Shown here piece after piece: positions 9,554-45,893 of a stretch of DNA of 64,000 nt (positions are counted from its first letter, which is position 1; every line of letters begins with the position of its first letter). Below the pieces are notes generated by a model, which was given only the letters and a program-made list of their open reading frames with translations, ran no database searches and was not told the DNA's origin. This DNA comes from Pontiella agarivorans. GTDB taxonomy: Bacteria > Verrucomicrobiota > Kiritimatiellia > Kiritimatiellales > Pontiellaceae. The stretch lies in the NCBI RefSeq assembly GCF_034531395.1, contig NZ_JARVCO010000010.1, positions 992,001 to 1,056,000 on the forward strand, read 5' to 3'. The position numbers and the translations under genes were made by a program.

Positions 9554-9854
9554 GATCCGCCCGTTTCAGTGTCTGCAAGGTCATTTCCGGCTATCAGGAA
9601 TTCCCCTATAGCCGGGGTTCCGTTTCCCCTAATTCATTTCCGGGGGGTTTTACCATAGTTCTTTTCAGTTGTTGCCCGTCTTGTGGATCTGAGTAGTTGG
9701 CGTAAGTTAAGTGGGTGGCAGGGAGCTTTCACCGAAAAGGGCATCGTATGGTATGGAAGAGTTTCGGGTGCGGGTTCTATTTGGAAAAGGGCTGCGGTTG
9801 TTACGGCCGGGTAGATGCTTCATCCGGTGTGTGCCCAATAATAAGGAGAAAGTC
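9554..9854. promoter_or_regulatory. Upstream region of the pilus operon with TTCCCCTA direct repeats
   Basis: These 300 bases lie between the response regulator and the secretin gene. TTCCCCTA occurs at 9601-9608 and again at 9624-9631, a spacing of 23 bases, with G runs between and after them that can form small hairpins (CCCC...GGGG). This may be a regulator site or part of a leader. I see no clear -35/-10 pair. The secretin frame is open upstream to 9711, but that part has no ribosome site. Confidence 0.35.
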
Positions 9855-11585
9855 ATGATTAAGCAGTTGAATACATCACGCGTACTGCGCTCTCCGGCGG
9901 GAGTGTTCGTTTTTCTCGTGTGGGTGCAAATGGGGGCGGTTGCGCAGGTGGCTTCAGAGGCGGGGGAGGCCCGTACGCAGATAATCGAGCCGGAAACGAA
10001 TAATATCAAAGCCTCGGAATATGTCTCTATTAATGTCAAAGATGCCAATATTGCTGAAGTGCTGAAAGCGTATTCCCTGCAGACGGGACAGAGTATTGTG
10101 GTTGGGCCCGACGTGGTTTCCGACAGTGTGAATGTGCGCCTGAATAATATTCCGTGGGAAGAGGCGCTTGATGTTATTCTGAAGCCTTACGGTTTTGGAT
10201 ATCGTGTGGTCGGCGATACCATCGTGATCAGCAAGTTGGAAAATATTGTGACTGTTGAAGGCATTGAACCGCTGGTTTCCGAGGTCTTCCGCCTCGGTTA
10301 CCGGGATGCGTATGATATACAGGCGATCATCGAGGCGCAGCTGAGTGCGCGCGGAAAATACACGATTCTCGAAACCAAGAGTCTGCCGGGATGGGAGTTC
10401 GGTGGCGAAGGATCGAGCAGTGGTGCGGCGACTGAGGGCGGTGTGCGTCAGCGCAGGGTGCGAGAAGAAATCCGAAAAAGTAAAACCATTGTTGTGACCG
10501 ACGTGCCTTCGGCGATCACCAAAATTGAAAAAATTATTAAAAAGATTGATGTGATGCCGGAGCAGGTTCTGATTGAGGCGAAATTTCTTGAGATCTCGAA
10601 GGGGGCCGGATCGGATATCGGATTGGATTATGTTCAAGGGTTGGAAAATGTTGATGACTCCCTGCAGAGCAGCGGGAGTTCGCTTCAGCCGCAATCCGTA
10701 AACTCGGATGTTCTGAAAGTACTCAACAGTGTGTCCGGTTATCCCAATCCGCTGAATACGGCGGCCGCCGGCGGTTACGGAATGGATGAAGGGTTGCGTC
10801 TGTCGCATGCCCTTATCGGGGACTGGGGAGCGGAAATGCTCTTCAAATTTATTGCTCAGGACGATGATTCCAACATTCTTTCCGCACCGCGCGTATTGAC
10901 TTTGAATAATCAGGAAGCGGCGATTTTGGTTGGCGAAAAATTTCCAATTATTGAATCGCAGAACAACACTGGAAGCGGAAGCTCGATAACATCTACGAGC
11001 CTGGACTATTATGAAAACATCGGTATTCAGTTGAATGTAATCCCGCAGGTGTGTGCAGATGAGTATGTGAATATGATTGTGCACCCGGCGGTCAGTCAGA
11101 TTCAGGGGTATGAATCAGGATTGGTTACCGCCGGATCGGATGTTCAGTCCGGTACGCGCTATCCCATCCTCGACATCCGTGAGGCGGAGACCCAGATTAT
11201 GATCAAAAGCGACCAGACCGCTATCATCGGGGGCCTCCAGGAAGAGCGGGATAAAGAGATTATCAAAAAAATTCCGATCCTCGGTGATATACCTTTTCTG
11301 GGTCGCCTGTTCCGTCGCGAAACCCTTTCCAAAGAGAAGATCGATCTGCTCATTTTTATCAAGGCATCGGTTGTGGATACTGAATCCTATCAGATGGACT
11401 CCGCTGCGGCGCATGCCCGCCGGGTCAAGCTTATGGAACTTGATCTGCTGCAGCCGGATGTCGCCGATAAGGCGGTCTCGAATCCGGCTGAAACCGCGGC
11501 CTCTGTGAGGGACAGTGCGCAAATTCTGGCTTTGGTTCAGGATAAGAATTCCACGATGACGACTAATGCACCGACTACAAAATGA
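9855..11585 (+). CDS. Secretin (PilQ/MshL/GspD-type outer-membrane channel)
   Basis: The product has 576 residues. ATG 9855 has AAGGAGA five bases upstream. A signal peptide (about 1-34) precedes an STN-like domain (SINVKDANIAEVLKAYSLQT, about 55-130), a secretin N-domain with KTIVVTDVPSAITKIEKIIK, and the C-terminal secretin domain with ILSAPRVLTLNNQEAAILVG and KKIPILGDIPFLGRLFRR. Fifteen-subunit-type outer-membrane pores of this family let pili or secreted proteins pass. Being first in an operon with PilM/N/O-like genes, it is closer to PilQ/MshL than to a classical GspD. There is no AMIN domain. Confidence 0.92.
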   Translation: MIKQLNTSRVLRSPAGVFVFLVWVQMGAVAQVASEAGEARTQIIEPETNNIKASEYVSINVKDANIAEVLKAYSLQTGQSIVVGPDVVSDSVNVRLNNIPWEEALDVILKPYGFGYRVVGDTIVISKLENIVTVEGIEPLVSEVFRLGYRDAYDIQAIIEAQLSARGKYTILETKSLPGWEFGGEGSSSGAATEGGVRQRRVREEIRKSKTIVVTDVPSAITKIEKIIKKIDVMPEQVLIEAKFLEISKGAGSDIGLDYVQGLENVDDSLQSSGSSLQPQSVNSDVLKVLNSVSGYPNPLNTAAAGGYGMDEGLRLSHALIGDWGAEMLFKFIAQDDDSNILSAPRVLTLNNQEAAILVGEKFPIIESQNNTGSGSSITSTSLDYYENIGIQLNVIPQVCADEYVNMIVHPAVSQIQGYESGLVTAGSDVQSGTRYPILDIREAETQIMIKSDQTAIIGGLQEERDKEIIKKIPILGDIPFLGRLFRRETLSKEKIDLLIFIKASVVDTESYQMDSAAAHARRVKLMELDLLQPDVADKAVSNPAETAASVRDSAQILALVQDKNSTMTTNAPTTK

Positions 11586-11628
11586 ATAATCCGGAAACAT
11601 TAAAGCTCGTAGTAAAGGACTGCACGGA

Positions 11629-13338
11629 ATGATTATCGACCAACTCAGCGAAATGATGATTCGGAGCGGCCGGGTCGGTACGCCGGAACTGGAAAAGGCT
11701 CTGTCGATCCAGGAGGAGACTGACCAGGTTCTTACGGATATTCTGATTCGTGAAGAACTGGCATCGCCGGAAGATATTGCGCGGACTTTTTCCGACCTGC
11801 TGAATATCCCGTATCTGGAACTGGGGGAGGAATTTCATCTTCAACGTGATGAATATGACATGATTCCTGAGTCGGTGGCCCGCCGTTTCTGCCTGATTCC
11901 TCTCGTGAAAGAGGAAGGAGTGGCGATTACGGTGGTGATGAAAAATCCGCTGGATATGGATGCGGTGGATACGGTGCGGTCGCTGACATCGTTTGAAATT
12001 CACAAGGCCGTCAGCACTGAGGCGAAAATCAAGGCGGTTATCGACAAATGCTATCGTGAAGAAGCCTATGTTGAAGCCGGACTTCAGGATATTGTTGATG
12101 TTGAAGCCGCAGGAAAAAACGGCGGGCTTGAAACCAGCCTCGGGGATGTGGATCAGCTTATTGTTCATGCCAACGATGCTCCCGTGGTCCGTTATGTAAA
12201 CCTGCTGTTGATGGAGGCGGTTCGTGACGGTGCATCGGATATTCATTTTGAACCGGGCGAGCACAGCTGCACGGTGCGCCTGCGTATTGATGGAACGCTG
12301 CATCCGGTCACTCCCCCGCCGAAATCGTTGTATCAGGCGATTATCACCCGAATCAAAATTCTGTCTGAGATGGATATTGCGGAACGTCGTCTCCCGCTGG
12401 ATGGACGGTTCAAGTTTAAATTTTCCGGGCGGGTTGTTGATGTGCGTGTTTCTTCGATGCCGCTGGTTTTCGGGGAGAAAGTGGTGATGCGTATTCTGGA
12501 TAAGCAGAGTCTGCTGCTCGATCTGGAGGATATCGGCTTTGAAGGCGAAAACCTCAAACGTTTCCGGGAGATCCTCGGTATGCCGAACGGGATTGTTCTG
12601 CTTACGGGACCGACGGGATCGGGAAAAACGACGACGTTATACAGTGCCCTGCAGATTCTGAAAAGCCCGACCCGGAATGTCCAGACGGTGGAAGATCCGG
12701 TGGAATATCTGATTGAAGGTATCAACCAGATGCCGACGCGGCCGAAGATCGGGCTGACTTTTGCAGAATGTCTTCGCCATATTCTGCGTCAGGATCCGGA
12801 TGCGGTCATGATCGGTGAGATCCGCGATGCAGAGACCGCCGAGATCGCCATGCGGGCTTCGCTGACCGGTCATCTTGTTTTGAGCACGCTGCATACAAAT
12901 GATGCGACATCGTCGTTCAGCCGTCTGCGCGATATAGGGATCCCATCCTATCTTACGGCGGCTACGATGCGCCTTATTATTGCTCAGCGGCTTGTGAAAA
13001 CGATCTGTCCAAACTGTAAAACGATTTATCAGCCGGACGCCGGCGAGCTGGAGTGGGTTAAGCCGATCTATCCGGATGCGCAGGACTGGACCTATTATCA
13101 TGGAAAAGGGTGCAACCACTGCCGTAACAGCGGGTTGAAGGGCCGCCGTGCTATTTTTGAGTTTATGGAGATTTCTCCGGCGATCCGGGAAATGGTGCAC
13201 GATGAGGTTGATGATCTTACGTTGCGACGGAAAGCGGTAGAGAGCGGTATGCAGACGCTGGCGGAAAACGGATTCCAGCGTGTGCGTGAGGGACAGACCA
13301 CGATCGGTGAAGCGATCAACGTTTGTGTGGTTGAATAA
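11629..13338 (+). CDS. Type IV pilus/type II secretion assembly ATPase (PilB/GspE)
   Basis: The product has 569 residues. An N-terminal MshEN-like domain (about 1-150) is followed by the ATPase core with Walker A GPTGSGKTT at residues 327-335, Walker B-type DPDAVMIGEIRDAETAE and a His box. Near the C-terminus a four-Cys zinc motif (CPNCK ... GCNHC) is present, as in PilB and GspE. It powers pilin extrusion from the inner-membrane platform. It lies 43 bases after the secretin and 13 before the platform protein. Confidence 0.95.
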   Translation: MIIDQLSEMMIRSGRVGTPELEKALSIQEETDQVLTDILIREELASPEDIARTFSDLLNIPYLELGEEFHLQRDEYDMIPESVARRFCLIPLVKEEGVAITVVMKNPLDMDAVDTVRSLTSFEIHKAVSTEAKIKAVIDKCYREEAYVEAGLQDIVDVEAAGKNGGLETSLGDVDQLIVHANDAPVVRYVNLLLMEAVRDGASDIHFEPGEHSCTVRLRIDGTLHPVTPPPKSLYQAIITRIKILSEMDIAERRLPLDGRFKFKFSGRVVDVRVSSMPLVFGEKVVMRILDKQSLLLDLEDIGFEGENLKRFREILGMPNGIVLLTGPTGSGKTTTLYSALQILKSPTRNVQTVEDPVEYLIEGINQMPTRPKIGLTFAECLRHILRQDPDAVMIGEIRDAETAEIAMRASLTGHLVLSTLHTNDATSSFSRLRDIGIPSYLTAATMRLIIAQRLVKTICPNCKTIYQPDAGELEWVKPIYPDAQDWTYYHGKGCNHCRNSGLKGRRAIFEFMEISPAIREMVHDEVDDLTLRRKAVESGMQTLAENGFQRVREGQTTIGEAINVCVVE

Positions 13339-13351
13339 TCAGAGTCAGGAT

Positions 13352-14617
13352 ATGCCACTTTTCAGTTATATTGCGAAAACAAATGAAGGACAGGAGGTCC
13401 GGTCCTCGCTGGAGGCCGGGACGCGTCTGGAAGCGTTGGAGTCGCTTCGTAAAAAAGGACTAACCGTTATTGATCTTTTCAATGCCGAAGAGAAAGCTCG
13501 GCCGGCGGCGGGTGCTTCGACTGAGGCGCTGAAATTGGCTTCTCCATCAGGAAAGCCGCGCCGGAGCTTTTCTTTTTCTTCCAAAGTCAAGATGACGGAC
13601 CTGGCTGTTTTCTGCCGTCAGCTGGCCATTTCGGTAAATGCCGGGGTTCCGTTGCGTGATGCGATTGAGGGTATCGGGATGGAGCTCGAGCAGCCGGTCC
13701 TTAAGCGTGTCAGCCGGGATATGGTTCAGCAGCTTCATGACGGACAGAGCTTTTCTGAGGTAATCCGCCGTCATCCGAAAGTGTTCAACGAAATGTTCTA
13801 CGGGTTGGTCAAGGTGGCGGAGGAATCGGGAAAACTTCCTGAAACCCTGAGCCAGCTGGCTTCCTATCTGGAACGTGCGGACCGCTTGCAGCGTCGTATC
13901 CGTGCATTAGCGGCTTATCCGGTTTTTATCGGCATTTTTTTCTTGGTGATTTGTCTGATTATGACGCTGTTTATTCTGCCGCGCTTTACAGAGATTTTCA
14001 GTGGTCTGGGTGCCGAGCTTCCGGTTTTCACGAAAATTATTTTTTCGGTGAATACCTTCTTCGTGGATAATTTTCTGTTGATTCTAATCGGGGTGTCGTT
14101 GTTGGTGATGTCATTGGTTTTTTATGGACGCAGCTCTTCAGGCTCGTACCGCAAGGATCTGATCAAGCTGAAGGCTCCTTATGCCGGGGGCTGCCTGAAA
14201 AAATATATACTGGCCCGTTTCTGTCGCAGTCTGGCGATTATGGTGAACAGCGGGGTGCCCATTTCAAACGCCCTCGAAATCTGTGCGCATGCCACAGGCA
14301 ACCAGTTGCTGAAGCGCAACGTGATGGGGGTGCGTGAAATGATTATGACGGGTAACCGGATTTCCGCCAGTCTGGATAAGGCGGGGATTTTTCCAGGACT
14401 GATTGTGCGTATGGTCGCGGTTGGGGAGGATTCCGGACAGTTGCCGGAGGTGCTCGATAATGTGTCGGAACTGTATGAGGATCAGGTAGAGGTTTCTATC
14501 ATGACAACTATGGCGCTGTTCGAACCCTTGATCATCTGTGTGTTCGGAGCCTTTATTCTGATACTGGTTCTTGCGATTTATCTGCCGATTTTCACGGTTT
14601 CCATGAATATGAGATAA
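13352..14617 (+). CDS. Inner-membrane platform protein (PilC/GspF)
   Basis: The product has 421 residues from ATG 13352; the frame is open upstream but overlaps the ATPase gene. Two GspF domains (FCRQLAISVNAGVPLRDAI and FCRSLAIMVNSGVPISNAL) flank membrane segments near residues 190-215 and 240-265, with a last helix near the C-terminus. This is the canonical three-helix platform that the ATPase rotates. The ribosome site is weak (AGGA very close to ATG), consistent with translational coupling to the ATPase gene. Confidence 0.95.
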   Translation: MPLFSYIAKTNEGQEVRSSLEAGTRLEALESLRKKGLTVIDLFNAEEKARPAAGASTEALKLASPSGKPRRSFSFSSKVKMTDLAVFCRQLAISVNAGVPLRDAIEGIGMELEQPVLKRVSRDMVQQLHDGQSFSEVIRRHPKVFNEMFYGLVKVAEESGKLPETLSQLASYLERADRLQRRIRALAAYPVFIGIFFLVICLIMTLFILPRFTEIFSGLGAELPVFTKIIFSVNTFFVDNFLLILIGVSLLVMSLVFYGRSSSGSYRKDLIKLKAPYAGGCLKKYILARFCRSLAIMVNSGVPISNALEICAHATGNQLLKRNVMGVREMIMTGNRISASLDKAGIFPGLIVRMVAVGEDSGQLPEVLDNVSELYEDQVEVSIMTTMALFEPLIICVFGAFILILVLAIYLPIFTVSMNMR

Positions 14618-26326: not shown

Positions 26327-27472
26327 TTAATGCTTACCGTGGTTTTTTCGGTAATCGCGGGGGGACATCCCGGTAGCTTTTCTGAAAGCAAAACTGAGAT
26401 AATTATAGGATGACAAACCGCAGGCTTCGGCGATTTCCTGCATGGAGAGGTCGGTTTCTGCTAGAAGTTTTCTTGCTCGGTTAATACGTAGTCTCCGGAT
26501 TTCCTCTGCGGGGGTGCGGCCGAATGTTTTTTTGAACTGATGTTCGAGTGAACTGCGTGCCATAGGTACTGCTTTCAATACATCATTAATGGTGATCGAC
26601 TCATATGCATGTTCTTTCATAAAGCCGATTACCTTGCGGAGCCGATCATCTTCCACCGCGAGCGTGTCGGTGGATAGGCGTTCCTTTACACCGACCGGAG
26701 GAAAAAAGAGAATGTCGTTAGGGACTGTTTCACCATTCATCATTCGGTCCAGCAGTTTTGCCGCGTGATAACCGACTTGTTTCATGGGCGATAACACTCC
26801 CGATAGAGACGGGTAGCAGGCGTTGCAGAGAAAATCATCGTTATTGGCTGCAAGAATGGCCACATCATGCGGTACGGGAATATCGGCAAGCATGCAGGCA
26901 TCCACTATTGATCGAGCATAGCCATGGCCCCAGGAGACAATCCCGATGGGTTTGGGTAAGGCGTGAAGCCACTTGGTAAGCGGAATGAACAGTTCACGGT
27001 CTGTCCCGTCATATTCAAATTTGGGACAGGCGGTCAGCCCCCGTTCCTTTAAAACGTTCTCGAAGTGATCGGCATATTCAATTGCGTTGGCGTAAATGGT
27101 TGGTCCAACAAATGCCATATTCCGGAATCCCCGCTGAATATAGTGGTCGACAGCGAGTTGAACACCAATCCGGTCATCGGTTCTCAGGTTTGGAGCGGAA
27201 AAGCCCTCAACCTTTGAATCCGCAATATTAATGACTGGTTTTCCTGTGGCGACGAGTTGCTCGGCAAGCTCCTGGGTACAGACCTGCGCAATATAGCCGT
27301 CACAAGCAACTCCTTCGTTAACGGCATCAATATTGAGCGGAAGACCTGGTTTCATGCGGAGTTGCCAAGGGCCTACCTCGCGCTCATAAGACATGACTCC
27401 TTCAATGGTATCACGTCCCCAGGCCGAGTTTGCTATGATGAGGAGGCCCACCTGCCAAATCTTCTTACTCAT
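26327..27472 (-). CDS. XylR-type regulator: sugar-binding domain plus AraC helix-turn-helix
   Basis: The product has 381 residues. The first 275 resemble a LacI/periplasmic-binding fold (VGLLIIANSAWGRDTIEGV, DRIGVQLAVDHYIQRGFRN, DVAILAANNDDFLC). The last 100 are a two-HTH AraC domain (INDVLKAVPMARSSLEHQFK, AEACGLSSYNYLSFAFRKAT, MSPRDYR). This arrangement, as in E. coli XylR, is very common beside sugar-utilisation genes in Verrucomicrobiota. It is divergent from the secreted-protein gene at 27682 and two inverted repeats lie between them, so it probably controls both. Confidence 0.9.
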   Translation of the reverse strand: MSKKIWQVGLLIIANSAWGRDTIEGVMSYEREVGPWQLRMKPGLPLNIDAVNEGVACDGYIAQVCTQELAEQLVATGKPVINIADSKVEGFSAPNLRTDDRIGVQLAVDHYIQRGFRNMAFVGPTIYANAIEYADHFENVLKERGLTACPKFEYDGTDRELFIPLTKWLHALPKPIGIVSWGHGYARSIVDACMLADIPVPHDVAILAANNDDFLCNACYPSLSGVLSPMKQVGYHAAKLLDRMMNGETVPNDILFFPPVGVKERLSTDTLAVEDDRLRKVIGFMKEHAYESITINDVLKAVPMARSSLEHQFKKTFGRTPAEEIRRLRINRARKLLAETDLSMQEIAEACGLSSYNYLSFAFRKATGMSPRDYRKNHGKH

Positions 27473-31205: not shown

Positions 31206-32020
31206 CTTCTATTTTCGGATTCAGCAGAATACTTCTGATGTTGCACGCGGATTTTCCGGCCACTGGAATAAGGGCCGTTCAAGGGCATTCAGGCGGGGAC
31301 ACAGGCGGTTTATGAGGCCGGATATATGTGCCCGCAACCGTTTGCGTCCTTCCCGGTCCAGGAGCAGGGCGATTTTTTTGATGTTCTGGGCGCAAGCCGC
31401 CATGAGGCATTGTTTCTGAACCTTATCTATTCCCCGGAAGCGCGCATAGCGGTGGTCGTTGACGGCTTCTTTATGCTTTTCCCAGATGTGGCGGGTGATC
31501 ACTTACTGATGGGCGCGGCTGGTGGTGCATTCCTTCAGCCGGGGGCAGTTCGCGCAGATGGAGGATCGGATTTATATTCGTGGTGACCTTCGCAGTTGGT
31601 GGTGGAGTAGCTAAGTACCTTCCCTTCGGGGCAGAGGTAGCCATCGTAATGTTCGTCGTAGGTGAAGTCGCGCTTTTTGAGTATGCCGGGTTTGCCCATG
31701 GGGCGTTTACAGGGCATGACGCCGTAGATGCGGCGCTCAGAAAGTCCTTTGCAGATGGCGGCGGTGTTGTAGCCGGAATCCACGCCGAGGGCATCGAGTT
31801 GTTCGGTATAGGATCTGACCGATTCGCTCACCTGCTTTTTCGTGAATTTGATTTTATTGGCATTGGCCTTCAGATGAGTTGAATCGGTGTAGAGTGTTTT
31901 GCCATCGATGAGCTTATGCTTTATCGCCTGCGTGACAATGTCGTCGAATATTTCCTGATCGATGCCGGTCACCTGAGTTGATAACTGCCGTATTCTTCAG
32001 GGTTGATCGGGAACACATTA
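31206..32020 (-). pseudogene. Decayed IS1182-like DDE transposase
   Basis: Minus-strand fragments align in order with an IS1182-type transposase: VFPINPEEYGSYQ, IFDDIVTQAIKHKLIDGKTL, TDSTHLKANANK (first catalytic Asp), GVDSGYNTAAICKGLSERRI (second Asp), CPEGKVLSY, a frameshift near 31565, ICANCPRLKECTTS, a stop codon near 31505, then ITRHIWEKHKEAVNDHR directly joined to YARFRGIDKVQ. The normal segment between the last two, which carries the catalytic Glu (VERSFADAK type), is missing. The N-terminal part is also absent. Confidence 0.8.
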
Positions 32021-32510: not shown

Positions 32511-32538
32511 TTGTCTTGAGAATTATCCAATGTATAGT
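32511..32538 (+). promoter_or_regulatory. Probable sigma-70-type promoter of the four-gene surface operon
   Basis: TTGTCT at 32511-32516 and TATAGT at 32533-32538 are separated by 16 bases. The predicted transcript would start near 32545, about 55 bases before the ATG at 32600. Confidence 0.5.
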
Positions 32539-32599: not shown

Positions 32600-34180
32600 A
32601 TGAAACTGGGTATGTTATTGGGTGTGCTGGTTGGTCTGGGAGGACTGTCGGGGGTGATGGCGGCGGAACCGCTGTGGAAAGTGGAAACGTGGGAGGCGGG
32701 CCGACAGCTGGTCTGGGCGAATCCCGGAACGAGCGGTGAAATCAGCGAGGCCTCCAATTGGAAAGAAAACGGTAAAACCGCGACTGCACCGCCGGACCGG
32801 AATACGGATATTCTGCTGCCCGGGGCTGAAAAATATTATGTGGTGAAGGGTTCGCGTAATAATCAGGTCCGTCATGTGGTGATTGAGAAAAATGCCGAGC
32901 TGAAGGGAAAGCACCGCAACGAGCTGGAGATCTGGGGCAATGTGGATGTGAAGGAAGACGGCTGGATTCATTTCATTTCAATCCGCGGCGATAAGGATAC
33001 CTATTTTAATATCGAGGAGTCGGTTTTTCCGGGCGACGGCCGGGTATATCGGCACTGTTCAAAAAATCCGCCGAAGGAAAAATGCTGTAATTCACAGATT
33101 TCCCACAAGTTTCAGATTTGCAAAATCGGCACCAAATCAGTGGAGTTTCTGAGTAATGTGGGCGTGAGCGACGAGGTGATGCTGCAGCACGGGAAATGTA
33201 TTATCAGCGGCGATTTCCGGTTCAGCGGGGCAACCAATAAGGGCGCGTTCGAGGTGTATGACGGCGGAATTCTTGAAATTCAATCAGGGGGCCGTCTTGC
33301 TCCGTTTATCAACGATAACCGAAAAGCGGTTTATAATGTGAATATCTATCGCAACGGTGTGCTGCAGGCGGGTTCTCCGGAGCGGCCGCTGACGGAGGAT
33401 GCGTATCTGTGTCTTGGTTTTGCCGTGAATGACAAGCCCGGGCGTTCCGGGCTGTATGCCGCGCTGGGTTCGATGATTCGGGTCTATTCCGAAAATCCGA
33501 AAAAGGCGAGGCTGGTGGTGACCTCGATTACATCGGTGGATGATTTTACCGATGGACAGGGCCGTGAAGTGGGTCGCGCCAGCGAGCGGGCGGACGATGA
33601 AAAAGGGGTGATGCTGCAACTGGCTGGGGATGTGCTGCTCGACGGTGTGCATTTCGACTATCTTGCAGAAGACGGCATCGGCCTGTTTGATGAAGATGTC
33701 GCAAAAACCTGGAAAAATGTGACGTTCGGCAAAAAGTGTGCTTCTTCCTCCCCCCGGAATCTGATTGCGGAAATGAAGGCCGATCCCAATTCATATTATC
33801 ACGGGCGCGGTGACCAGCGGTCGGAATACGGGCTCACGATGAAGGCGATGGCCTCCATGAATCAGCTGCTCGGTGAATATGAACCCTTTCAGCTGAAAAC
33901 GACGCCGGAAAATACAACGATCCGCAAAGTGGGCAAGGGCAATAACCAGATTGAAACCCCGGTGGCGGTTATTTTTGATGAGCCGATCGAGGTTGAAGTG
34001 AAAACCAGAGTCCCGGGGGCAAAAATCCGGTATACGACGGATGGCACAGAACCGACGGCGAAATCGCCGGCCTACACCCGGCCGATTAAATTGGCGAAAA
34101 CAACGAAGCTGACGGTCAAGGCCTATAAAAAAGGCGTGGGCTTCAGTCCGACTTACACCACGACCTATGTCATTCAATAG
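32600..34180 (+). CDS. Secreted beta-solenoid-like protein with chitobiase/hexosaminidase C-terminal domain
   Basis: The product has 526 residues from ATG 32600; the frame is open further upstream but without a ribosome site. A signal peptide (about 1-21, ending VMAA) precedes a long beta-rich part with repeated short strands (VVIEKNAELKGKHRNELEIW, FEVYDGGILEIQSGGRLAP) as in surface beta-helices. The last 60 residues are a CHB_HEX_C-type domain (IRYTTDGTEPTAKSPAYTRP, then KAYKKGVGFSPTY). This domain usually decorates secreted or surface proteins. First gene of an operon whose second gene starts 12 bases later. Confidence 0.75.
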   Translation: MKLGMLLGVLVGLGGLSGVMAAEPLWKVETWEAGRQLVWANPGTSGEISEASNWKENGKTATAPPDRNTDILLPGAEKYYVVKGSRNNQVRHVVIEKNAELKGKHRNELEIWGNVDVKEDGWIHFISIRGDKDTYFNIEESVFPGDGRVYRHCSKNPPKEKCCNSQISHKFQICKIGTKSVEFLSNVGVSDEVMLQHGKCIISGDFRFSGATNKGAFEVYDGGILEIQSGGRLAPFINDNRKAVYNVNIYRNGVLQAGSPERPLTEDAYLCLGFAVNDKPGRSGLYAALGSMIRVYSENPKKARLVVTSITSVDDFTDGQGREVGRASERADDEKGVMLQLAGDVLLDGVHFDYLAEDGIGLFDEDVAKTWKNVTFGKKCASSSPRNLIAEMKADPNSYYHGRGDQRSEYGLTMKAMASMNQLLGEYEPFQLKTTPENTTIRKVGKGNNQIETPVAVIFDEPIEVEVKTRVPGAKIRYTTDGTEPTAKSPAYTRPIKLAKTTKLTVKAYKKGVGFSPTYTTTYVIQ

Positions 34181-34192
34181 GAATTTTACAGC

Positions 34193-36163
34193 ATGAAATG
34201 TAAACGTATTTTTATATGCGGTCTGGCCGCATTACTCAGCACCGGTGCGGTGCAGGCGGTAATCAACCCGGCGCTGCAGCCGGATGTCTACTTTACGAAA
34301 TATGATAATGTGCTGGTTCTGCGGCTCGATGAAATTGATGCCGATGCCGGGGTGCTGTCATGCGCTGTGGTGGAGGTGCTCAAAGGGGCGTATCAGCCGC
34401 AAGAATCGATCGAAATCACGTTCGCCGGTGTGATGAAAAGTCAAGTGGCTGAGCGGGTTTCGGCCGGGGTTTTTGAAGTCGGGAAAGCATTTCCGGTTTT
34501 TGCGGGAAAGCCGAGCCGCCGGAAATCCAAACGTCAGGTCCGTATGTATTTCGATGAATTTTTTGTCGGTGAAGTGCTGGAACCCGGCCGGCTTCAGATC
34601 GGGGTTTCTGACGGATCGGAAAAGGATTCCGAAGGCCGTGCGGTCAATACGCTGGCCGGCATTTACTGCGGCATGACCGGGGAGCTGATCCAAATGCTGA
34701 AAGATATGGCGGCGGGGTCGGATTATTATCCGCGCAAAGCTTACGTGAAATTTAAACCCGACATGCTGATCAGTCAGCTCCAGGGATCGGTTGAAGGGGC
34801 GGCTATGTTTGATCTGAACGGAGACGGCATGGAAGATCTTGTGGCGTGTTCGCCGATGGGCGACCGTGTGTTTCTGCAGGTGGAACCGATGCAGTTTTCC
34901 GATGCCACTGAAAAGCTGGGCATCACGTCGGCTTCCGTCAGCTGTTCCGCGGCCGATGTTGATTGTGACGGGCTCGCCGATCTGATGCTGGGCTCCACCA
35001 TTTACAGAGGTGTTTTCGATCAGACCTATCGGCTGGAAAAGACGGATTGGCTGAACGTGGAAAATGCGGCCGCCCTGAAAAGTGCATCCTTTGTTGAGCT
35101 CAACGGGGATGGGTTTCCGGACGTGGTGATCAGTTATGAAGGCGGGGGATTGCAGGCCCTGCTGAATCCGGGCGGCGCCGGCGAATTTGCTGCGCTTTCC
35201 GCCGGACTTCCAGACACTGGAAACGGCTATATCGTGGCCGGCGACTGGAACGGTGATGCCCGCACGGATCTGTTCTATTCCGAAGGACGGGGCCACTTTC
35301 TGGTACAGGATGAAAACGGCGGGTTCCAATCGTTGGAACATGATATTGATTTTTCCTTCCGTACCGGCGTGGATGAAGTCGGAAAAACCGGCGCCGGTAT
35401 TTTTATGCCGACGTATCGGCAGGATCGGATGGATCTGGTGGTGCCGATTGAAAAGGACTGGCTGATTATCGAAAACCGCGATGGTGTTCCAACGGATACT
35501 ACCCGGTACGGTAACGAAATCAGTGAGGGGTCCGATTATCATCTGGCGACCGTTTATGCCGATCTCAATGTCGATGGCTACATGGATATCTACACGGTCT
35601 GCGATCAGCGGAAAGAAAACCGGTATATCATCAATCGGGGATACGGGTCCTATATGCATGCTAAAGTGCATGTGGATGAAAAACCGCTTTTCAAAGGGCC
35701 GGCCCATGGTTCGGGCGGGCGTTCGCTTGCGGTGGGCGATGTCAATGATGACGGCGCGCCGGACCTGCTGATCGGTAACGAGTCGGGGCAGGTTTTTCTG
35801 ATTATCAACGATACGCTGTCGATGCGGGTGGAAGGCGAGCTGCTGACAAAAGATGAACAGCGTCTGTTGCATGTGGCGCTCTGCTCGGTCCGGGTACTCG
35901 GACCGAAAGGGGTTGTCGGGGCCAAGGTTCGTCTGCTGGATGAATCCGGAAATGCCGTCTGCCGAAAAGATCTGGGCGGTAATACGGCCACGGGCTGCAG
36001 CAGTCCGGATACGGTCTGTTTTGCCGTGCGCCGGCCGGGAAAATATACGGTGAATGTTGAATACGCTGACGGGCATGTGCGCAATGAGGATGTGGAGCTG
36101 ATCCAAACTGAACGCGCATCGATTGTGGTTGAACGTGGGGATGCTGATGATGCTGCCTGGTGA
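34193..36163 (+). CDS. Exported FG-GAP (VCBS/integrin-type) repeat protein
   Basis: The product has 656 residues. A signal peptide (about 1-23) leads to an N-terminal domain ([20 protein letters not shown] onward, about 35-190), then at least six FG-GAP-type calcium loops: [50 protein letters not shown] and [10 protein letters not shown]. These form a beta-propeller as in integrin alpha chains. A small C-terminal beta domain follows ([20 protein letters not shown]). Its stop overlaps the start of the PQQ-type gene, so the two are coupled. No enzymatic motif seen. Confidence 0.82.
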
Positions 36164-37769
36164 TGTTGCTGTTGTTCCGATTTTTGTAAATGCAGGCGCG
36201 GCGCTGTTGCCGGCTATGGCGGCGGGAATCGCCACGTTTTTTGCCCTGCTGTTCAAGCCCCGGGCGCTGCTGAAAGCGTGTAAGGAAAAACCGCTGATTC
36301 CGCTGGGGGTTCTGCTGGTGATCGGCGGAGTTTGGGCTGCGGTAAAATTCCGGCCGTCTCATGGCGGTGCGCCTGTTGCCGCAGAAACAACCCGCTCCCC
36401 TGCACAGACCGGATCCGTGTATATCGACTGGACGGAAGTGGCGCTCCAAAGCATTAAAGCCAGAGCCCGCGGTGAACTGAAATCGGTTCAGCCCCGGCCG
36501 TCGGTTGCATTGCAAACGGCCGGTGTTGAAGAACCGGTGATGTTCCGGGGCGGCTCGGCCCGCCTCGGGGCAAGGGGGGCTGCGCCGGAGGGCGAGCTGA
36601 AACTGGTGTGGGATTATTATCCGAGCTGGGTGGATGATGACGGCTCGGTGGAAGTGGTCGATTCCGCCATGATGCTTTCGAGTCCTGCCGTTTTCGGTGA
36701 CCGGATTTATTCGGCTTCGTGTGAGCTCGATCCGCCGGACAGTTACGGCATTGTCTTTTGTGTGAATGCGGGTTCCGGTGAGACCATCTGGTCGATTGAT
36801 CAGGTGGAAGGCGAAGAGCTGATGGGTTTTTTCAGTTCGCCTGCGGTTACGGCCGATGGAAAATATGTGCTGATCGGCCAGGGCCTGCACCCCGACACCA
36901 ACTGTCGGTTGATCTGCATCGATGCGGAAAAGGGGGAGGTGCACTGGACTGTGCAGAGTGAACTGCATATTGAAAGTTCGCCGGCCATTGAAAACGGGGT
37001 GGTTTACGTCGGAGCCGGTGCCATTGAAGATCCGGCTACGCATAAACCGGTCAGCCACACCGGCTATGTGATGGCCATCCGTATTGAAGACGGTAAAGAA
37101 CTTTGGCGGCACGATGTGGCCGACCCGGAAAGTTCTCCGATTGTGAAAGACGGCGTGGTGTACATCGGCAGTGGATTTAACGGAAAAGCGGTTGTGGCCC
37201 TGCGGGTGGAGGAAGAGCTTGAGGGGCAGCCGCGCGAAATCTGGCGAACCGAAACGCCGTATCCGATTACAGGGGCGGTAACGCTGGTGGACGATATCGT
37301 CATCGTCGGCGGCGGTAACGGTGATTTTGTGTTCCGCGATCCCGATCCCGCCGGTGTGGTGATGGCTCTCGATGCGAAAACCGGAAAAGTCAGATGGTCG
37401 ACCGCGATGCCTGATGCGGTACTCGGTGCTGTGGCAGCCGGAAAATATTTGATTGCCCCTGTGGCAGCCGGTCGTGTGATGGCCCTCGATCCGTCGACGG
37501 GCAATACGGTCTGGTCAACGGCCGTCAGCGGTCAGGCTCCGGTGCTGGCCGGCGCGTCGATTGCCGGCGATGTGGTTTATGCGGTCAGTCACGATGGCTA
37601 TCTGGCCACCCTATCCCTTGAGACCGGGGAGGTGCTGGATAAAATCTACATCAACGACCGAACCCGTCCGGGGGAGCAGGGGCTTTCAATCAGTTCGCCG
37701 ATGATTCAGGACGGCCGGATTTATGTGGGCAGTGAAACCGGGGGACTTCGCTGTTATGAAGGATCGTAG
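36141..37769 (+). CDS. Membrane-anchored PQQ-like beta-propeller protein
   Basis: The product has about 542 residues; ATG 36141 is chosen, with 36147 and 36150 as alternatives. Two N-terminal transmembrane helices (about 8-35 and 44-62) are joined by a short basic loop ([12 protein letters not shown]). The rest is periplasmic: repeated blades [57 protein letters not shown] and [13 protein letters not shown], as in BamB and PQQ dehydrogenases. No PQQ-binding disulfide pair is evident, so it is more likely a scaffold or sensor than an enzyme. It overlaps the dikinase gene by 14 bases. Confidence 0.82.
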
Positions 37770-40700
37770 TGCATTCGTTCTCCCGCTTTTTCAGTCCACC
37801 GATGTGGAGCAGGTCGGCGGAAAGGCGGTCAATCTGGCCAAACTGATGCAGGCCGGTCTGCCGGTTCCCGATGGTTTTGTGATCACTGCCGATGCGTTTC
37901 GTACCTCGGCCGACGGCCTCGTATCGAGCGCATTGGCTGATGAAATCCGGACCGCTCTGGCCGGTTTGAACGGGCGGCGTTTTGCGGTGCGCTCTTCAGC
38001 CACGGCCGAGGATATGGCCGGGGCCTCCATGGCCGGTCAGTATGACACCTTTTTGAATGTGCAAACGGCCGAAGAGGTCATTGCCGCTGTGGAGAAGTGC
38101 TGGAGCAGTGTGCGCTCCTCCCGCACGGAAGTTTATCTTTCGGAGTACGGCATTGATTTGAATGAAGTGGCCATGGCCGTGGTGGTGCAGCAGCAGGTTT
38201 CGGCCGAGGTTGCGGGGGTGCTTTTCACTGTTGATCCGCAGAATGGGTCGCGCGAAAACATGCTGATTGAGGCGACGTGGGGGCTGGGTGAAATGCTGGT
38301 TTCCGGCGAGGTGCAGCCCGATGTCATCTGTGTTTCCGCGGATGCTGATCGAGTGCTGTCATACGATGTTGCCGAAAAAAAATATGCGATCTATCCCGGC
38401 GGTTCGGGGATAGAAGCTGTTCCTGAAGCATTGCGGAAACAGGCCTGCCTGAAGTTTGAACAGATCGCGCGACTGCGGGAACTCGGATGCCGCGCGGAAG
38501 CGCATTTCGGCGCACCGCAGGATATTGAGTGGGCTGTGGAAGAGGGCGTCGTGCTGATGCTGCAGGCGCGGCCGATTACCACGCTGGCTGAAACGGATTG
38601 CTATAACCGGCTGCTGAAAGAAACCCGGGATTATCTTTTCCAGCGTCTGGAAAACGGCGGCGGTTTCTGGGTGCGTCATAATCTGGGGGAAACGCTGCCG
38701 CATCCGACACCGTTGAGCTGGAGCCTGATTTCGCATTTTATGTCGGGTCGCGGCGGATTTGGAACCATGCACGAACGGCTCGGTTTCTCGCCGGGTGCCG
38801 CAGTGCGGAATCGCAGTTTCCTGGACCGCATCGGCGGTGAAATTTATATGGATTGCTCGCTGATGACGGAGATGTTTTCGGACAACTATCCGTTTGCCTA
38901 TGACCCGGAGCTGCTGCGCCGTGATCCCGATGCCGCCCAGAATCCGCCAACCCTCCCGAAAGGCCGCCTGCGGGCCATCGGCGATGCGGCAAAGCTGGCG
39001 CGGAAAGCCGCTTCAAAAATTGAAACACGGACCGAAACACTCGATCGGGAGTTTGATGAGGACTATGTGCCGAAGGTGCTGGCGTGGTCGGAAAAACAGG
39101 AGGCGCTGAATCTTCCGGAGTTTGGAAATGAAGAGTTGATTCAGCTGTGGCGCGAACAGACCGAAACGGTGCTGGATGATTTCGGGGCAATGGCGTTTCT
39201 GCCGAGTATGGTTGAAGCGGTGGCGATGGAGGAACTGCGTCAGATTCTCAACGAGGAGCTCTGGAATGAAGAGCCCGACGAAGTGATTTCCACGCTTTGC
39301 GTCGGTACGGTTCCGGACCGGACGATGGCCGGAAATCTGGATCTGAAACGGCTCGATACTGAAACGTGGATTGAGCAATACGGTTTCCGCGCGCCGGCCG
39401 AATTCGACCTGGCATCGCCGCGCTGGCGCGAGCGTCCGGATGAGGTGGTGCAGCTGGCCGCACAGCTGGATGATATCGATCTGGAGCAGGTGCATCGTGA
39501 ACGCACGCAGGCGGCGGAAGAATGCATGAACCGTTTGCACCGCGAGTTGGAACCTGATGTTTTTAATAAAATAAAAACGGCTTCAGATGTGGTTCAGCGC
39601 TACCTGCGCTTTCGCGAAGACGGTAAATTCTACCTCATGCGGGCCTACAGTGTTTTGCGTTTAACCGCACTCGAATTCGGGCGTCGGCTGCAGCTGGGGG
39701 ACGATATCTTTTTCCTCCAGCCGACTGAAATTTTCCAGGCATTGGAAACCGGTTTTGTCCCGCTGGATCAGGTTGCGAAGCGTAAACTGGAATATGCCGT
39801 GGAACAGCGGATTCAGGTGCCGCATGTTATCGAGGCCGATGATATTCCACAGTTTGGAACTGCACCGGTTCGAGCCGATGGACCGACTCTGGATGCGCAT
39901 TCGGTATCGAGTGGTCTGGTTGAAGGATCTGTTGAAATTGTGCACTCTCCCGAGGCCGGACATCATTTTCCCGCGGGGGCGGTTCTGGTCTGTCCGTCGA
40001 CCGATCCTTCGTGGACTCCGCTGTTCGCAAAAGCGGGCGGTCTGGTGCTGGAACGCGGGGGAGCGCTTTCGCACGGGGCGGTGGTTGCTCGTGAAATGGG
40101 CCTGCCGGCGGTGGTGCTGGACGGTGCCACGGAATTGCTGGAGCAGGGCGAGTTGATTACGGTGGATGCCCAGCGCGGGTGTATTTACCGCGCAGGTGCG
40201 GAGCCGATTGAGCATACGGATGTTCCGCGGAGCGAAACTCCGCCGCCGGCGGGAAGCAAAGAGGCCGCCGCAAACCGGATGGGACTGGTGGCTGCGATTC
40301 TGTGGGGGGGGCTGCTGGCTCTGGTTTTCCTTCTTCCGCCGCGGCTGCTTCACGATCCGTTGTTTGGAATTCTCGATGCGCTTCTCTGGCCGCTGGTTCG
40401 CGGCGCGGGCATGGTCGGAACGGTGGCGGTGGTTGCCGGGGTGTTCGGGCTGCTTCCAATCCTTGGACAAAAACTACTGACGGACAATGATCGTCTGTTT
40501 GTGGCAAAGCGACGGTCGGGCCGCTTGCGTAAAGCCGCCGCCGGACTGCCGGCCGACAGTGAACGGCGCAAAAAAATGGAAGCGTTGGCCGCACCGGTTA
40601 CAACGCGGATTCTGAAAGCATCGATGGTGCCGCTGGCGCTGATTCTCGGTCCGATGATTCTGGTTTTCATGTGGTTTCCCGCTCGGGTGGACCCGGCGTC

Positions 40701-41292
40701 GTGGAATGCGTCTCCGGGGCGTATGGTGAGTATCGTGGCGGAAGTGGATGGCGAATGTGCGGAGCCGGTTTCGTTGGCGGTGGCGGAGCCATTGACACTT
40801 GATTCAGAGTCGGTGCAGACGCTGCCGCCGATTCGTGCAGAACTCGAAATGATCCGCGTCGGCTGGCAGCAGGGCAGTGCCATGCCGGAGCTGCCCTGGG
40901 AGGTGCAGGCGGCGGGCGAGCAGGTGCGGAAAACCATGCTGGCCAGTTTAAATGCCTATCTCAGAAACGGGGTGCCGCCGCAGAAACTCACGTGGCTGAT
41001 TCAAGTGCCGGAAACGGCGGAGGGCGCGTTCCCGGTTTCGTTGCGGATCGGTGATGTTGCTGAAACGGAGTTTAACCTCGTATTCGGGAAAAGTGTTCCG
41101 CCGGAACCCTCTGCCTGGCTGGAGGTTTCGGAGCAGGTGGTTTCTGTGACGGTGAATTATCCGCGGGCGCTGCAGAAGGCGTCTTTCTTTACTCTTCCGG
41201 GCACGAAGAAGGATCTCGGTTGGCTGGGCGTCTATCTGCTGATTTATCTTCCGGTTATGTTTGGATCGAAGTTTCTGCTGCGGGTCCCCTGA
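37756..41292 (+). CDS. Dikinase (rifampicin phosphotransferase/PEP synthase-like) fused to a DUF106/EMC3-like membrane module
   Basis: The product has 1178 residues from ATG 37756, inside the end of the preceding gene. Residues about 1-300 are the ATP-binding domain ([48 protein letters not shown]). About 305-690 is a middle domain of the rifampicin-phosphotransferase kind ([19 protein letters not shown]). About 720-820 is the swivelling phospho-His domain with His773 in [20 protein letters not shown]. The PEP/pyruvate barrel of true PEP synthase is absent. From residue 842 on there are two hydrophobic helices, a basic helix ([14 protein letters not shown]), another helix ([16 protein letters not shown]), about 170 soluble residues and a last helix ([20 protein letters not shown]). 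That tail resembles archaeal DUF106/EMC3 proteins of the Oxa1/YidC superfamily. Dikinases of this type transfer a phosphate from ATP to an acceptor, giving AMP; the acceptor here is unknown. The fusion is surprising and the membrane assignment is less certain than the kinase part. Confidence 0.82.
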
Positions 41293-41416
41293 TTCTTCTC
41301 CTTCGGAGAGGGAAGTGGCGCAAATGTATACTCCTTCTGCGGGGCAGGACGTATTCCGGTCTGTTCATTGCTTATACCTTGGATGTTGAATTTCAACGAT
41401 TGAATGAGGTGTGGCG

Positions 41417-44398
41417 ATGAAACGTGTGTGGATGATGTGTGCGGGCCTGGTGCTGACTGCGGGTGCGGAGAATATGGATTTGCGGGGGCTGTGGACTTTT
41501 GACGACGGCACCGGAACGCAGATTACCGATGCATCGGGCAACGGTAATATCGGTTTTGCGCAGGGCGTAAAGTGGGATAAGGGCGTAAACAATGCCGGTC
41601 TGCTGTTTAATTCGGGCGGATTTGTGAATGCCGGTAACGATTCCAGCCTGAGTCCGGCGGAGGGTCTTACGGTCGAAGCCTGGGTGAAAATGTGGAATCT
41701 GCCTTACAAAAACTATCCGGAAATTATTACGAAAAAAGGGTCCTATGCATTCCGGTTTGCGCCGGGCGGTAAACTTTCGATTGAACTGATGGTCGACGGG
41801 CAGGCGGTTGAACTGACCTCCCGCCGGACTGAGTGGCCGAACAGTGTGTGGACGCATGTGGCGGCGACGTATGACGGTGAAACGCTTGCGCTGTATACCG
41901 ACGGCGTGAAAGATGCGGAAAAGAAGGTTTCGGGAAAAATCGATAAAAGCCGCTCGAGCCTGGTGATCGGTTCGACGGATGGGAAATCGCGCGTGCCCGG
42001 TCGTATGGATGAGGTCCGCGTGGCGGGTCGCGGATGGAGTGCGCAGGAAGTTTATGATTCCTATCACGAAGGTGCGTATCAGGTGGCGCGTGAGGACAGC
42101 ACATTTCCTCAGTTTTTTGAGAAGAAAAACCGGCGTGTTCCTGAGATGGCGGTTCCCGGATTTATCTGGATCGATGCCGAGGATTTTTCCGATTACGGCG
42201 GCTGGAGCATGGATACGCAGTTTGTGCCGCAGATGGGTTCCCCGTATCTGCTGGCCGCCGGTATCGGAAATCCGGTGAAGGATGCGGTGACCACATTGAC
42301 GGTGCCGGAAGCCGGAACCTACCGGATCTGGGTGCGGTCGAAAAACTGGCTGAAGGAGCATGCACCGGGGACTTTCAAGGTTGCTGTAAATGGAAAGACG
42401 CTGGAAAAAACATTCGGAGCCGAGGCGAGCGGAAAGTGGGTCTGGGAAGATGGCGGAACGGTGAAGCTGGAGAAAGGCGATGCCGCACTGGCCCTGCATG
42501 ACCTGACCGGGTTTTACGGCCGTTGCGATGCGATCGTGCTGACTTCCGATGAAAAATATACGCCGCCGGCGGAACTGCAGGCCTATAAAAACGAACGCGC
42601 CCGACTGACCGGTCAGTCGCTGGAGGCAACATTCAAAGGGGACTACGATGTGATTGTGGTTGGTGCAGGCGTGGCCGGAATCAATGCCGCTATTTCATCG
42701 GCACGAACAGGGGCAAAAACTGCGCTGATTCAGGATCGCCCAATGATCGGCGGTAACAACAGCCTGGAGCTGGGGGTGGTGGTTTCCGGACCGGCCAACC
42801 ATGGCAAACCGAATATGCGCGAGAGCGGACTGAATGAGGAAATCGGGCGGGTTCGGGCTTATAATTATCACGGAAAATGGAGCCGCGGGGCAGAGCTGGT
42901 GGCGGCGGCCGAAACCAACTTAACGATTTTTCTGAATACCCATGTCAATGAAGTGGAGATGGATGGAAGTACAATTAAGGCGGTGAAGGCGTTTAATATG
43001 GTGGATGGTTCGCGCACCCGCTATACCGCGAAACAGTTCATCGATTGCACAGGCGATGGCTGGCTGGGGTATTATGCCGGAGCTGAATATCGTCATGGGC
43101 GTGAGGCGCGGTCGGAATTCAACGAAAGTCACGCTCCGGAACAGGCCGACCATATTACGATGAGCGGCTGTCTGATGACCGGGCATACGCTGTCGTACAA
43201 CACGAAGAAGGAAAAAACGCCGCAGCCGTATTCCGGTTCGGAGTGGCTGTGGGATCTGCGCCCGAATGGAAAAAATCTGGAGGCGCGCAACGGATTTGAA
43301 GGCAGCCACACCTATGGACGCTGGTGGCATGAAAATGTAGGTGAAACGGATGACCTGTGGGATCCGGAAAATACGCGCGACGAGCTGATTGTTCTGAACC
43401 TGAGTTACTGGAACTGGATTAAGAACTATTCTTCGGTAAAGGATGAGGCGGCGAACTATCGTCTGACGATTATCCCGATCGGCAATGCCAAGCGGGAAAC
43501 GCGCCGTTTGGTGGGGGATCATATTCTGACGCAGGACGATGTGCTTTCTGCGCGGAAGTTTGAGGATGCGGTGGCCACCGGCGGCTGGTCGCTGGATGTT
43601 CACCATCCAAAGGGAATCTGGTCGGAAGAGGGGCCGTTTGATTTCAATACGCAGGCTCCGGCCAATCCGCTGCCATTCCGCATTCTGTATTCCAGAAATA
43701 TTAACAATCTGCTGTTTGCCGGGCGCCAGGTTTCGGCCACCCATGTGGCTTTGGGCAATGTGCGCGTTCAGGGCACTACGGGCGTGCTGGGTCAGGCGGT
43801 GGGCACCGCTGCGGCGATGTGTACAGCGAAGGGGATCAATCCGCGTGAATTATACCGAAGTTATATTAAGGAGCTGCAGCAACAGCTGATTAAGGATGAC
43901 CAGTATATTATCGGTCTGAAAAATGAAGATCCGGCTGATCTGGCACGTCATGCAACGGTCTCCGCTTCCAGTTTCATGGCCGGCGGTGAGCCCGGACAGG
44001 TGATCAACGGAATGAGCCGGATTGTCGGGAAAAAGAAAAACATGTGGATGTCTGATCCGGCGCAGCCGATGCCGCAGTGGCTGGAACTGGATTTTGGGCA
44101 GGCCAAAAGAATGAATGCCATTTATGTGACGCTGGATACTGATTTAAATGACAAGCGGCATGCATCCTGGGAATTTAAGGAGAGTGAACGTTTTGTGCCG
44201 GAAAGTATTCGCGAGTATTCGGTGAAGGTGCTGGTGAATGGACGCTGGCAGACGGTCGCTGAGGTGGAAGATAATTTTCAGCGTCGTCGGATTCACCGTT
44301 TCCCGTCGCTGGAGGTTTCCAAAGTCCGGATTCATGTGCAGCGGACCAACGGCGATAAATCGGCCCGGATCTTTGAGGTGCGGGCGTATAACGAATAG
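41417..44398 (+). CDS. Secreted multidomain FAD-dependent oxidoreductase with LamG and discoidin-like domains
   Basis: The product has 993 residues from ATG 41417. A signal peptide (about 1-18) precedes a LamG/concanavalin-like domain ([20 protein letters not shown], then AWVKMWNL and [17 protein letters not shown], about 22-215). Next is a carbohydrate-binding-like region (about 240-395), then an FAD_oxidored domain with the Rossmann motif [20 protein letters not shown], the flavin segment [14 protein letters not shown] and [18 protein letters not shown]-terminal F5/8-type (discoidin-like) domain follows ([20 protein letters not shown]). Related proteins are frequent in polysaccharide-degrading PVC bacteria and probably oxidise sugars or remove substituents. 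A terminator follows. Confidence 0.85.
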
Positions 44399-44456: not shown

Positions 44457-44561
44457 CGTATACCTGAAAGGAACGATATTTTTGATCGGACAGACGATTT
44501 CTTATTGCCAGTTGCACCTTGTCTGTTTACGTTCTCAGTTCTCAGGAAACAGGAGATTCAA

Positions 44562-45893
44562 ATGAAAATACGATACCCCGCTCTCGTTCTGGCCGCTGTT
44601 GCCGGAGGTGCCATGGCGCAGAATCCGCTGGTCACCCACATGTATACGGCGGACCCGACCGCCCGCGTTTTCAATGATACGCTGTATATTTATCCTTCGA
44701 GTGATCAGGTTCCGCCGGAGGGAAGAAAGGCCAACGATTTCTGTATGCCGGGGTATCGCATGTTCCGTCTCGATGGCGGGGCGACGTGGACGGATGTCGG
44801 TCCGGTGCTGGATCAGAATGAGGTGCCGTGGGGTAAAAAAAACTCATTTGCGATGTGGGCACCGGACTGCATCGAAAAGGATGGGAAATATTATTATTAT
44901 TTTCCGGCGGCTCCGCTGGATGGTTCGGCTTTCCGCCGTATCGGGGTGGGGGTGTCCGATTCTCCGGAAGGCCCGTTTGAATGGGAGCCGCACTATATCG
45001 AGGGGGTGAAGGGGATCGATCCGGGGCTGTTCGTCGATGATGATAACAGGGCCTATCTCTATTTCGGCGGCGGACATGAACTGTTTGTGGTCCCGCTGAA
45101 AGACAACATGAAGGAAATCGCCGCGCCGCCGAAAAAGATCGAGCATCTGCCGACAGGCTATAAGGAAGCCTCTTTTATGTTTAAGCGGAACGGCATTTAC
45201 TACATGACCTTTGCGCATACCTTCCCGCAGGAGGGGTATACGATCGGTTATGCCACATCGGATTCACCGATGGGGCCGTTTGTATACGGCGGAAAAATCA
45301 TGGACAACATCGGTAACGGCACCAACCATCATTCCATCACCAAATACAAGGGACAGTGGATTCTGTTCTATCATTGGTGGGATATCAGCGGATTCAATAA
45401 ACTGCGCTCCATGCGGGCGGATTATCTGCAGTTTCATAAAGACGGCAGTATTCTGAAGGTGAAGCCGACCCTTCGGGGTATTGGTACGCCGGGGCTCGGT
45501 GAGCTGATTCAGGTTGATCGGTATAATGAAATCAACGGCTGCGAAACGGCTTTCCTTGAAAAGGACGGTTATCGCGGCTGGATGGTGACCGAAACGAAAC
45601 CGAACAGCCATGTCCGTTTTGATCGCGTAAACTTTACCGGTGCGAAAAAAATCCAGGCCCGGATCGCCTGCGGGCAGACCTTCGGGAAATTCGAAATCCG
45701 GCAGAATCATGTGTGGGGGAAACTGCTGGCGGAATTTCCGGTGCATCATACCGGCGGATGGAACCGCTGGGAAACCATCGAGGCGGAAATCAAAGAGCCG
45801 ATTGACGGGGTGCATAATCTGGTGGTGGTGTTCAAGCCGGATTGGGGCGGCACCAAGCTGGTTAATCTCGACTGGCTGAAGCTCACTGAATAG
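44562..45893 (+). CDS. Secreted glycoside hydrolase family 43 with CBM6-like domain
   Basis: The product has 443 residues from ATG 44562 with AGGAG upstream. A signal peptide (about 1-19, ending AMA) precedes a five-bladed GH43 propeller. The three catalytic acids can be placed: general base Asp31 (TADPTARVF), pKa-modulating Asp153 (KGIDPGLFVDDD) and general acid Glu202 (GYKEASFMF). The C-terminal 130 residues (FDRVNFTGAKKIQARIA, then GWNRWETIEAEI) look like a CBM6. Likely acts on arabinan, xylan or arabinogalactan side chains in the periplasm or outside; the exact substrate cannot be told. Confidence 0.9.
   Translation: MKIRYPALVLAAVAGGAMAQNPLVTHMYTADPTARVFNDTLYIYPSSDQVPPEGRKANDFCMPGYRMFRLDGGATWTDVGPVLDQNEVPWGKKNSFAMWAPDCIEKDGKYYYYFPAAPLDGSAFRRIGVGVSDSPEGPFEWEPHYIEGVKGIDPGLFVDDDNRAYLYFGGGHELFVVPLKDNMKEIAAPPKKIEHLPTGYKEASFMFKRNGIYYMTFAHTFPQEGYTIGYATSDSPMGPFVYGGKIMDNIGNGTNHHSITKYKGQWILFYHWWDISGFNKLRSMRADYLQFHKDGSILKVKPTLRGIGTPGLGELIQVDRYNEINGCETAFLEKDGYRGWMVTETKPNSHVRFDRVNFTGAKKIQARIACGQTFGKFEIRQNHVWGKLLAEFPVHHTGGWNRWETIEAEIKEPIDGVHNLVVVFKPDWGGTKLVNLDWLKLTE

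Follow-up and report, generated by a model that had tools for sequence, protein, structure and literature searches.

A membrane-anchored PQQ-like propeller encoded with a putative RPH-type phosphotransferase, and usually a DUF106/EMC3-type protein, in several bacterial phyla

The phosphotransferase RPH inactivates the hydroxyl compound rifampin, its substrate, and the functional residues of RPH-Lm are K22, R117, T136, E297, the pair 666/667, and H825 (PMC4844700). The RPH-Lm structures (PDB 5hv1/5fbs) show an ATP-grasp domain, a substrate domain, and a C-terminal phosphohistidine swivel, in that order. HpeI, a two-component RPH-like kinase of hydroxyphenylethanone breakdown, serves aromatic catabolism (9goj; PMC12167813). 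On the membrane side, DUF106/EMC3 proteins are insertases or relatives of insertases; DUF106 has been treated as archaeal, with EMC3, TMCO1, and GET1 as its eukaryotic descendants (PMC8887752, PMC8675477). In EMC1 and BamB, a PQQ-like β-propeller operates alongside a protein of membrane biogenesis.

We analyzed a stretch of 64,000 nucleotides (the window; contig positions 992001-1056000) from the 4.4-Mb genome of Pontiella agarivorans. As originally predicted, the window holds four open, co-directional reading frames in a row, with gaps of +12, −23, and −14 bases. Pfam matches were CHB_HEX_C_1 (3e-16), FG-GAP_3 (5e-26), PQQ_2 (6e-36), PPDK_N (2e-77), and PEP-utilizers (7e-23). The features, in window positions, are these:

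32600-34180 (+): CHB gene, encoding 526 aa; a Sec signal peptide is followed by a long conserved N-terminal region (family A7) and, at the C terminus, a CHB_HEX_C_1/Fn3_assoc domain
34193-36163 (+): FG-GAP gene, encoding 656 aa; after the signal peptide, an N-terminal domain specific to the system (A6, residues 23-185) and then FG-GAP repeats
36141-37769 (+): PQQ-like propeller gene, encoding 542 aa; a BamB-like propeller behind a pair of N-terminal membrane helices
36165-36350 (+): two-helix anchor at the N terminus of the propeller protein (residues 9-38 and 52-70), bearing the conserved [AG]-V-[VI]-P-[IV] motif
37756-41292 (+): fusion gene, 1178 aa, gap −14; putative RPH-type phosphotransferase plus DUF106/EMC3-type membrane tail
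37768-38610 (+): ATP-grasp domain, residues 5-285; K23, R79, T98, and E258 correspond to RPH-Lm K22, R117, T136, and E297
38653-39390 (+): CENT, the system-specific part of the substrate domain, residues 300-545; in the genomes searched, found only in this system
39613-39618 (+): R620-E621, counterpart of the apex pair 666/667 in RPH-Lm
39880-40212 (+): phosphohistidine swivel domain, residues 709-819; His773 (40072-40074) corresponds to RPH-Lm His825
40279-40335 (+): extra membrane helix, residues 842-860, not in standalone DUF106 proteins
40351-40686 (+): DUF106/EMC3 core, residues 866-977; helices H1 and H4, with a helical hairpin on the cytosolic side between them
40705-41172 (+): Ig-like β-sandwich inserted between H4 and H5, with a predicted periplasmic location
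41221-41280 (+): H5, the final membrane helix (residues 1156-1175), with the consensus GWLxVYLLAYLPxM

The CHB and FG-GAP proteins each have one N-terminal, signal-peptide-like hydrophobic segment; all four hydrophobic helical regions of the fusion protein lie in its tail. The propeller gene starts at an internal ATG, with a gap of −23 to the FG-GAP gene. Its product is nearest to BamB in sequence, and an identification as EMC1 has no support beyond E = 0.002 for EMC1_N, below the cut-off; unlike both EMC1 and BamB, it is anchored by two N-terminal helices. An initial description of three propeller or solenoid proteins was apt for the FG-GAP and PQQ proteins, which belong to propeller families, and loose as to the CHB protein. 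A promoter at 32511-32538 had also been put forward as an argument for coupling. The site is a 9/12 match, and the region holds seven such sites compared with 6.3 expected from shuffled sequence; we therefore dropped it. Antisense to the FG-GAP gene lies a 632-aa open frame (34358-36256, −), probably a by-product of codon use.

The kinase part of the fusion resembles RPH in domain order, catalytic residues, and fold. A model of residues 4-814 aligned with RPH 5hv1 over 703 residues (Z 32.5, rmsd 5.9, 29% identity). The ATP-grasp domain carries the Lys, Arg, and Thr equivalents, the central domain has the RPH fold with an apex Arg/Glu pair, and the swivel domain holds the catalytic His, followed by the DUF106 tail and no PEP/pyruvate domain. 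K23, R79, T98, E258, R620-E621, and H773 were invariant in an alignment of 15 fused members; with the catalytic residues all kept, both half-reactions look intact. Residues and modeled fold together make kinase chemistry of the RPH type quite probable. Several differences from RPH-Lm should be set against this likeness. Region 300-545 had no credible match, to RPH or otherwise, in a sequence search of the PDB, although it does match RPH in the full-model fold comparison; DUF106 is fused to the kinase or encoded beside it; the propeller is a constant partner; and the fusion is not known to act on rifampin. HpeI shares the ATP-grasp type (9goj, Z 27) and differs in its role in aromatic catabolism and in having no known membrane partner.

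Pfam found no DUF106 match in the window protein or in its tail alone. A profile of 16 fused tails (A3) matched the archaeal DUF106 protein MJ0480 (5c8j) at E = 6e-9, with a second, weak match to the last helix, and a profile of 15 standalone proteins from loci with separate kinase and DUF106 genes (A8) matched it at E = 1e-6. PF01956 (EMC3_TMCO1) was matched by 14 of the 15 standalone proteins, the protein of locus L073 scored above the PF01956 cut-off, and the fused and standalone profiles aligned over nearly their full length (hhalign probability 98). The tail model (pLDDT 89.8; helices 39-81, 84-102, 109-150, and 328-348 in tail-model numbering) has the long helices and hairpin of the DUF106 family, that is, a three-helix core with a cytosolic helical hairpin. 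The matches in a fold search with the whole tail were taken up by the Ig-like insert (best Z 7.2) and say nothing about the membrane core. By these profile comparisons, assignment of the tail to the DUF106/EMC3 branch of the Oxa1 superfamily holds up, and with the RPH residues and fold match it bears out the earlier call of an RPH-DUF106 fusion.

The tail proteins share H1, the cytosolic hairpin, H4, and H5 with its GWL/Y motif with MJ0480, EMC3, and TMCO1 (PF01956). They differ in being bacterial, in the Ig-like insert of ∼155 residues between H4 and H5, in their link to a kinase, and in occurring alongside an ordinary YidC. The fused tail also has one helix (the first) more than standalone DUF106 proteins, presumably because a cytosolic kinase must precede an H1 that starts outside. 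A separate ordinary YidC was found in all eight system genomes checked, ruling out a role as YidC replacement.

A propeller-profile scan that took one genome from each species recovered 16 close family loci, spread over Pontiellaceae, other Kiritimatiellia, Lentisphaerota, Akkermansiaceae, other Verrucomicrobiota, and Planctomycetota; Pontiellaceae bacterium B12227 carries the closest relative of the window's cluster. In every one of these loci the propeller is followed by the kinase fusion, except in L014, where the contig ends inside the propeller and a fused gene sits at the edge of another contig of that genome. Matches to PF01956 revealed a second architecture, with kinase and DUF106 as separate genes 3' of the propeller and often FG-GAP first. 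This split order (FG-GAP, propeller, kinase, DUF106) is collinear with the fused form and typical of most Planctomycetota loci. A search with the central region of the kinase added many further loci. Counting loci with more than 600 bases upstream of the kinase, the propeller was directly upstream on the same strand in 46/46, commonly with a 4-base overlap; 15 of these loci came from the propeller search and 31 from the kinase central domain or DUF106 profile. DUF106 was directly downstream of the kinase in 22 of the 28 split loci with room for it, and lay between propeller and kinase in L135. The kinase central region was present in 10 of 288 genomes of the window's phylum and in 34 of 343 Planctomycetota, and at ∼10% of the sampled Planctomycetota genomes the system is not a rarity.

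The exported proteins co-occur with the kinase as well. The FG-GAP N-terminal domain was found in seven of the 288 phylum genomes, all among the 10 with the kinase central region (p = 4e-12), and strong matches to the CHB N-terminal family in six, five of which are exactly the genomes with an intact fused form (p = 4e-10); both values overstate independence, as the genomes are related. A strong CHB-family match at G007:C30:1167-2069 (L178) is in a genome without a kinase match. We discarded the CHB protein as a universal part, since among system loci it was seen only with the fused form. In genomes G015 and G154, the CHB and FG-GAP genes are found apart from the propeller and kinase genes, either elsewhere on the contig or on a different one. 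This points to two modules, and the two proteins may accordingly be partners or clients and not subunits.

The gene order thus recurs across several phyla; the genes are not scattered in relatives, an outcome foreseen as counting against the original prediction, and neither is their co-occurrence at chance level. We have very little doubt that the system is real and functionally coupled. Sequence comparison shows a conserved system built around a membrane-anchored PQQ-like propeller and a phosphotransferase of the RPH type; a DUF106/EMC3-type membrane protein is usually present as well, exported FG-GAP proteins often are, and exported CHB proteins often accompany the fused form.

A tree built from the central region places one branch (support 100/99) between the fused and the split sequences, and on this tree a single change separates the two forms. 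Within the fused clade the phyla are intermixed, a pattern suggestive of horizontal transfer, although caution is due because metagenome bins make up most of the records. Variants further define the core. In loci L159-L162, a compact kinase of ∼670 aa accompanies a propeller with the same N-terminal anchor motif, and none of the genomes checked held a DUF106 gene at any position; the system can therefore do without the membrane protein. The L011 protein (4469-6934; = L027) adjoins a propeller and keeps the central and tail regions, with no recognizable ATP-grasp or swivel domains, hinting at a structural role; it is the only member to lack the catalytic domains. From these variants, the constant core is the propeller plus the substrate domain, with the membrane protein usual.

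Our tentative best explanation of the whole, held at less than even confidence, is an AMP-forming phosphorylation of a lipophilic hydroxyl substrate that involves an EMC3-like groove, the propeller, and exported partners. The kinase domains would be cytosolic and would transfer phosphate from ATP onto His773, releasing AMP and Pi, after which the phosphate would swing to a hydroxyl of an organic substrate in the central domain. Given the kinase's link to a membrane protein from a groove-forming superfamily, the substrate would probably be lipophilic or membrane-bound, for example a lipid alcohol. Protein insertases scramble lipids (PMC10491306) and RPH acts on a hydroxyl (PMC4844700), which favors a membrane-associated hydroxyl substrate; that a lipophilic substrate is handled by the groove itself we regard as possible and rather doubtful. 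The DUF106 bundle might present the substrate or let the phosphorylated form change leaflet, the propeller could dock the product on the outer side, and the FG-GAP and CHB proteins may act on or receive a modified envelope or carbohydrate component. All four proteins might then form one envelope-spanning machine, as first proposed. A metallophosphoesterase gene lies beside the system in L017, L019, L022, L024, L139, L141, and L156, and an acylphosphatase gene in L138 and L150; phosphatase-family neighbors in these nine loci, a minority, would fit a cycle of phosphorylation, movement, and dephosphorylation. The DUF106-less third variant, L011/L027 with its missing catalytic domains, and the distant FG-GAP and CHB genes count against this explanation. 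On the unlikely side, we also entertain that bacteria of the PVC group have an EMC-like envelope machine whose EMC3-family protein, propeller, and AMP-forming phosphohistidine kinase would flip a phosphorylated lipid or energize insertion. If true, this would be the first Oxa1-superfamily protein permanently coupled to a phosphotransferase.

The chief alternative is an insertase that resembles the EMC and has a kinase as regulator. DUF106 would be a true insertase for a few client membrane or exported proteins, the propeller an outer-side chaperone, and the phosphotransferase a regulator or energy input. The known function of DUF106/EMC3 proteins as insertases or their relatives (PMC8887752, PMC8675477) speaks for such a machine, as does the parallel between propeller plus EMC3-like protein and EMC1 plus EMC3, the EMC1 propeller being a possible chaperone in the eukaryotic EMC. 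The ordinary YidC present in 8/8 genomes makes a specialized role plausible, and the L011/L027 member keeps its tail without catalytic domains. However, the propeller is closest to BamB, with the EMC1 propeller at only E = 0.002, and the third variant does without DUF106. We also know of no insertase that needs an AMP-forming dikinase, and overall we consider a dedicated insertion machine unlikely.

That RPH inactivates rifampin (PMC4844700) and HpeI works in aromatic catabolism (9goj, PMC12167813) raises the prospect of a detoxification or catabolic kinase, anchored because its xenobiotic or aromatic substrate is hydrophobic, with propeller and FG-GAP proteins as accessories. This would leave the invariant propeller partner and the DUF106 partner unexplained, and the central region 300-545 lacks an RPH match by sequence, making the idea improbable. 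Equally improbable is an accessory function in polysaccharide use, with the cluster inside carbohydrate-use loci and the kinase phosphorylating a sugar or glycolipid. The operon is flanked by genes for an AraC-type regulator with an XylR/LacI-like sensor domain (26327-27472, −) and a GH43-CBM6 glycosidase (44505-45893, +), and GH123 and recurrent LacI-like and sulfatase-like genes adjoin several homologous loci; yet such genes are abundant in these genomes and vary by locus, and no transporter or sugar-processing gene recurs among loci. That unrelated genes came to be packed together by chance is the default view of any unusual operon, and the window by itself could not exclude it. This view is refuted for propeller and kinase by the adjacency in 46/46 loci and very unlikely for FG-GAP (p = 4e-12; 4e-10 for CHB), and overall its probability is negligible.

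In a literature search limited to non-subscription papers, we found no paper combining DUF106 with PQQ and phosphoenolpyruvate synthase, no report of DUF106 proteins in Planctomycetota, and no paper joining an RPH-type kinase to an Oxa1-superfamily protein, each of the individual domains being known. Within that literature, the original prediction of an undescribed system is supported. A DUF106 branch among PVC bacteria, with an operon of its own and coexisting with ordinary YidC, is relevant to how insertases evolved. It also provides a tractable system for asking whether the Oxa1-superfamily fold moves non-protein cargo.

Finally, we noted several features around the operon and its homologs. 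Just 5' of the operon, a 145-aa frame (31535-31972, −) appears by eye to be an IS1182-like transposase fragment, with no Pfam match; it would fit recent mobility of the region. Directly 3' lies a gene (41411-44398, +) for a large FAD-dependent oxidoreductase that also carries LamG and F5/8 type C domains. Elsewhere in the window, at 9711-14617 (+), the translations resemble by eye a secretin, an ATPase, and an inner-membrane platform protein, as in type II secretion or type IV pili. In L020 (3368-5169) and L026 (1560-3382), the four-gene operon is preceded by two small genes that look by eye like an ECF sigma factor and its regulator.
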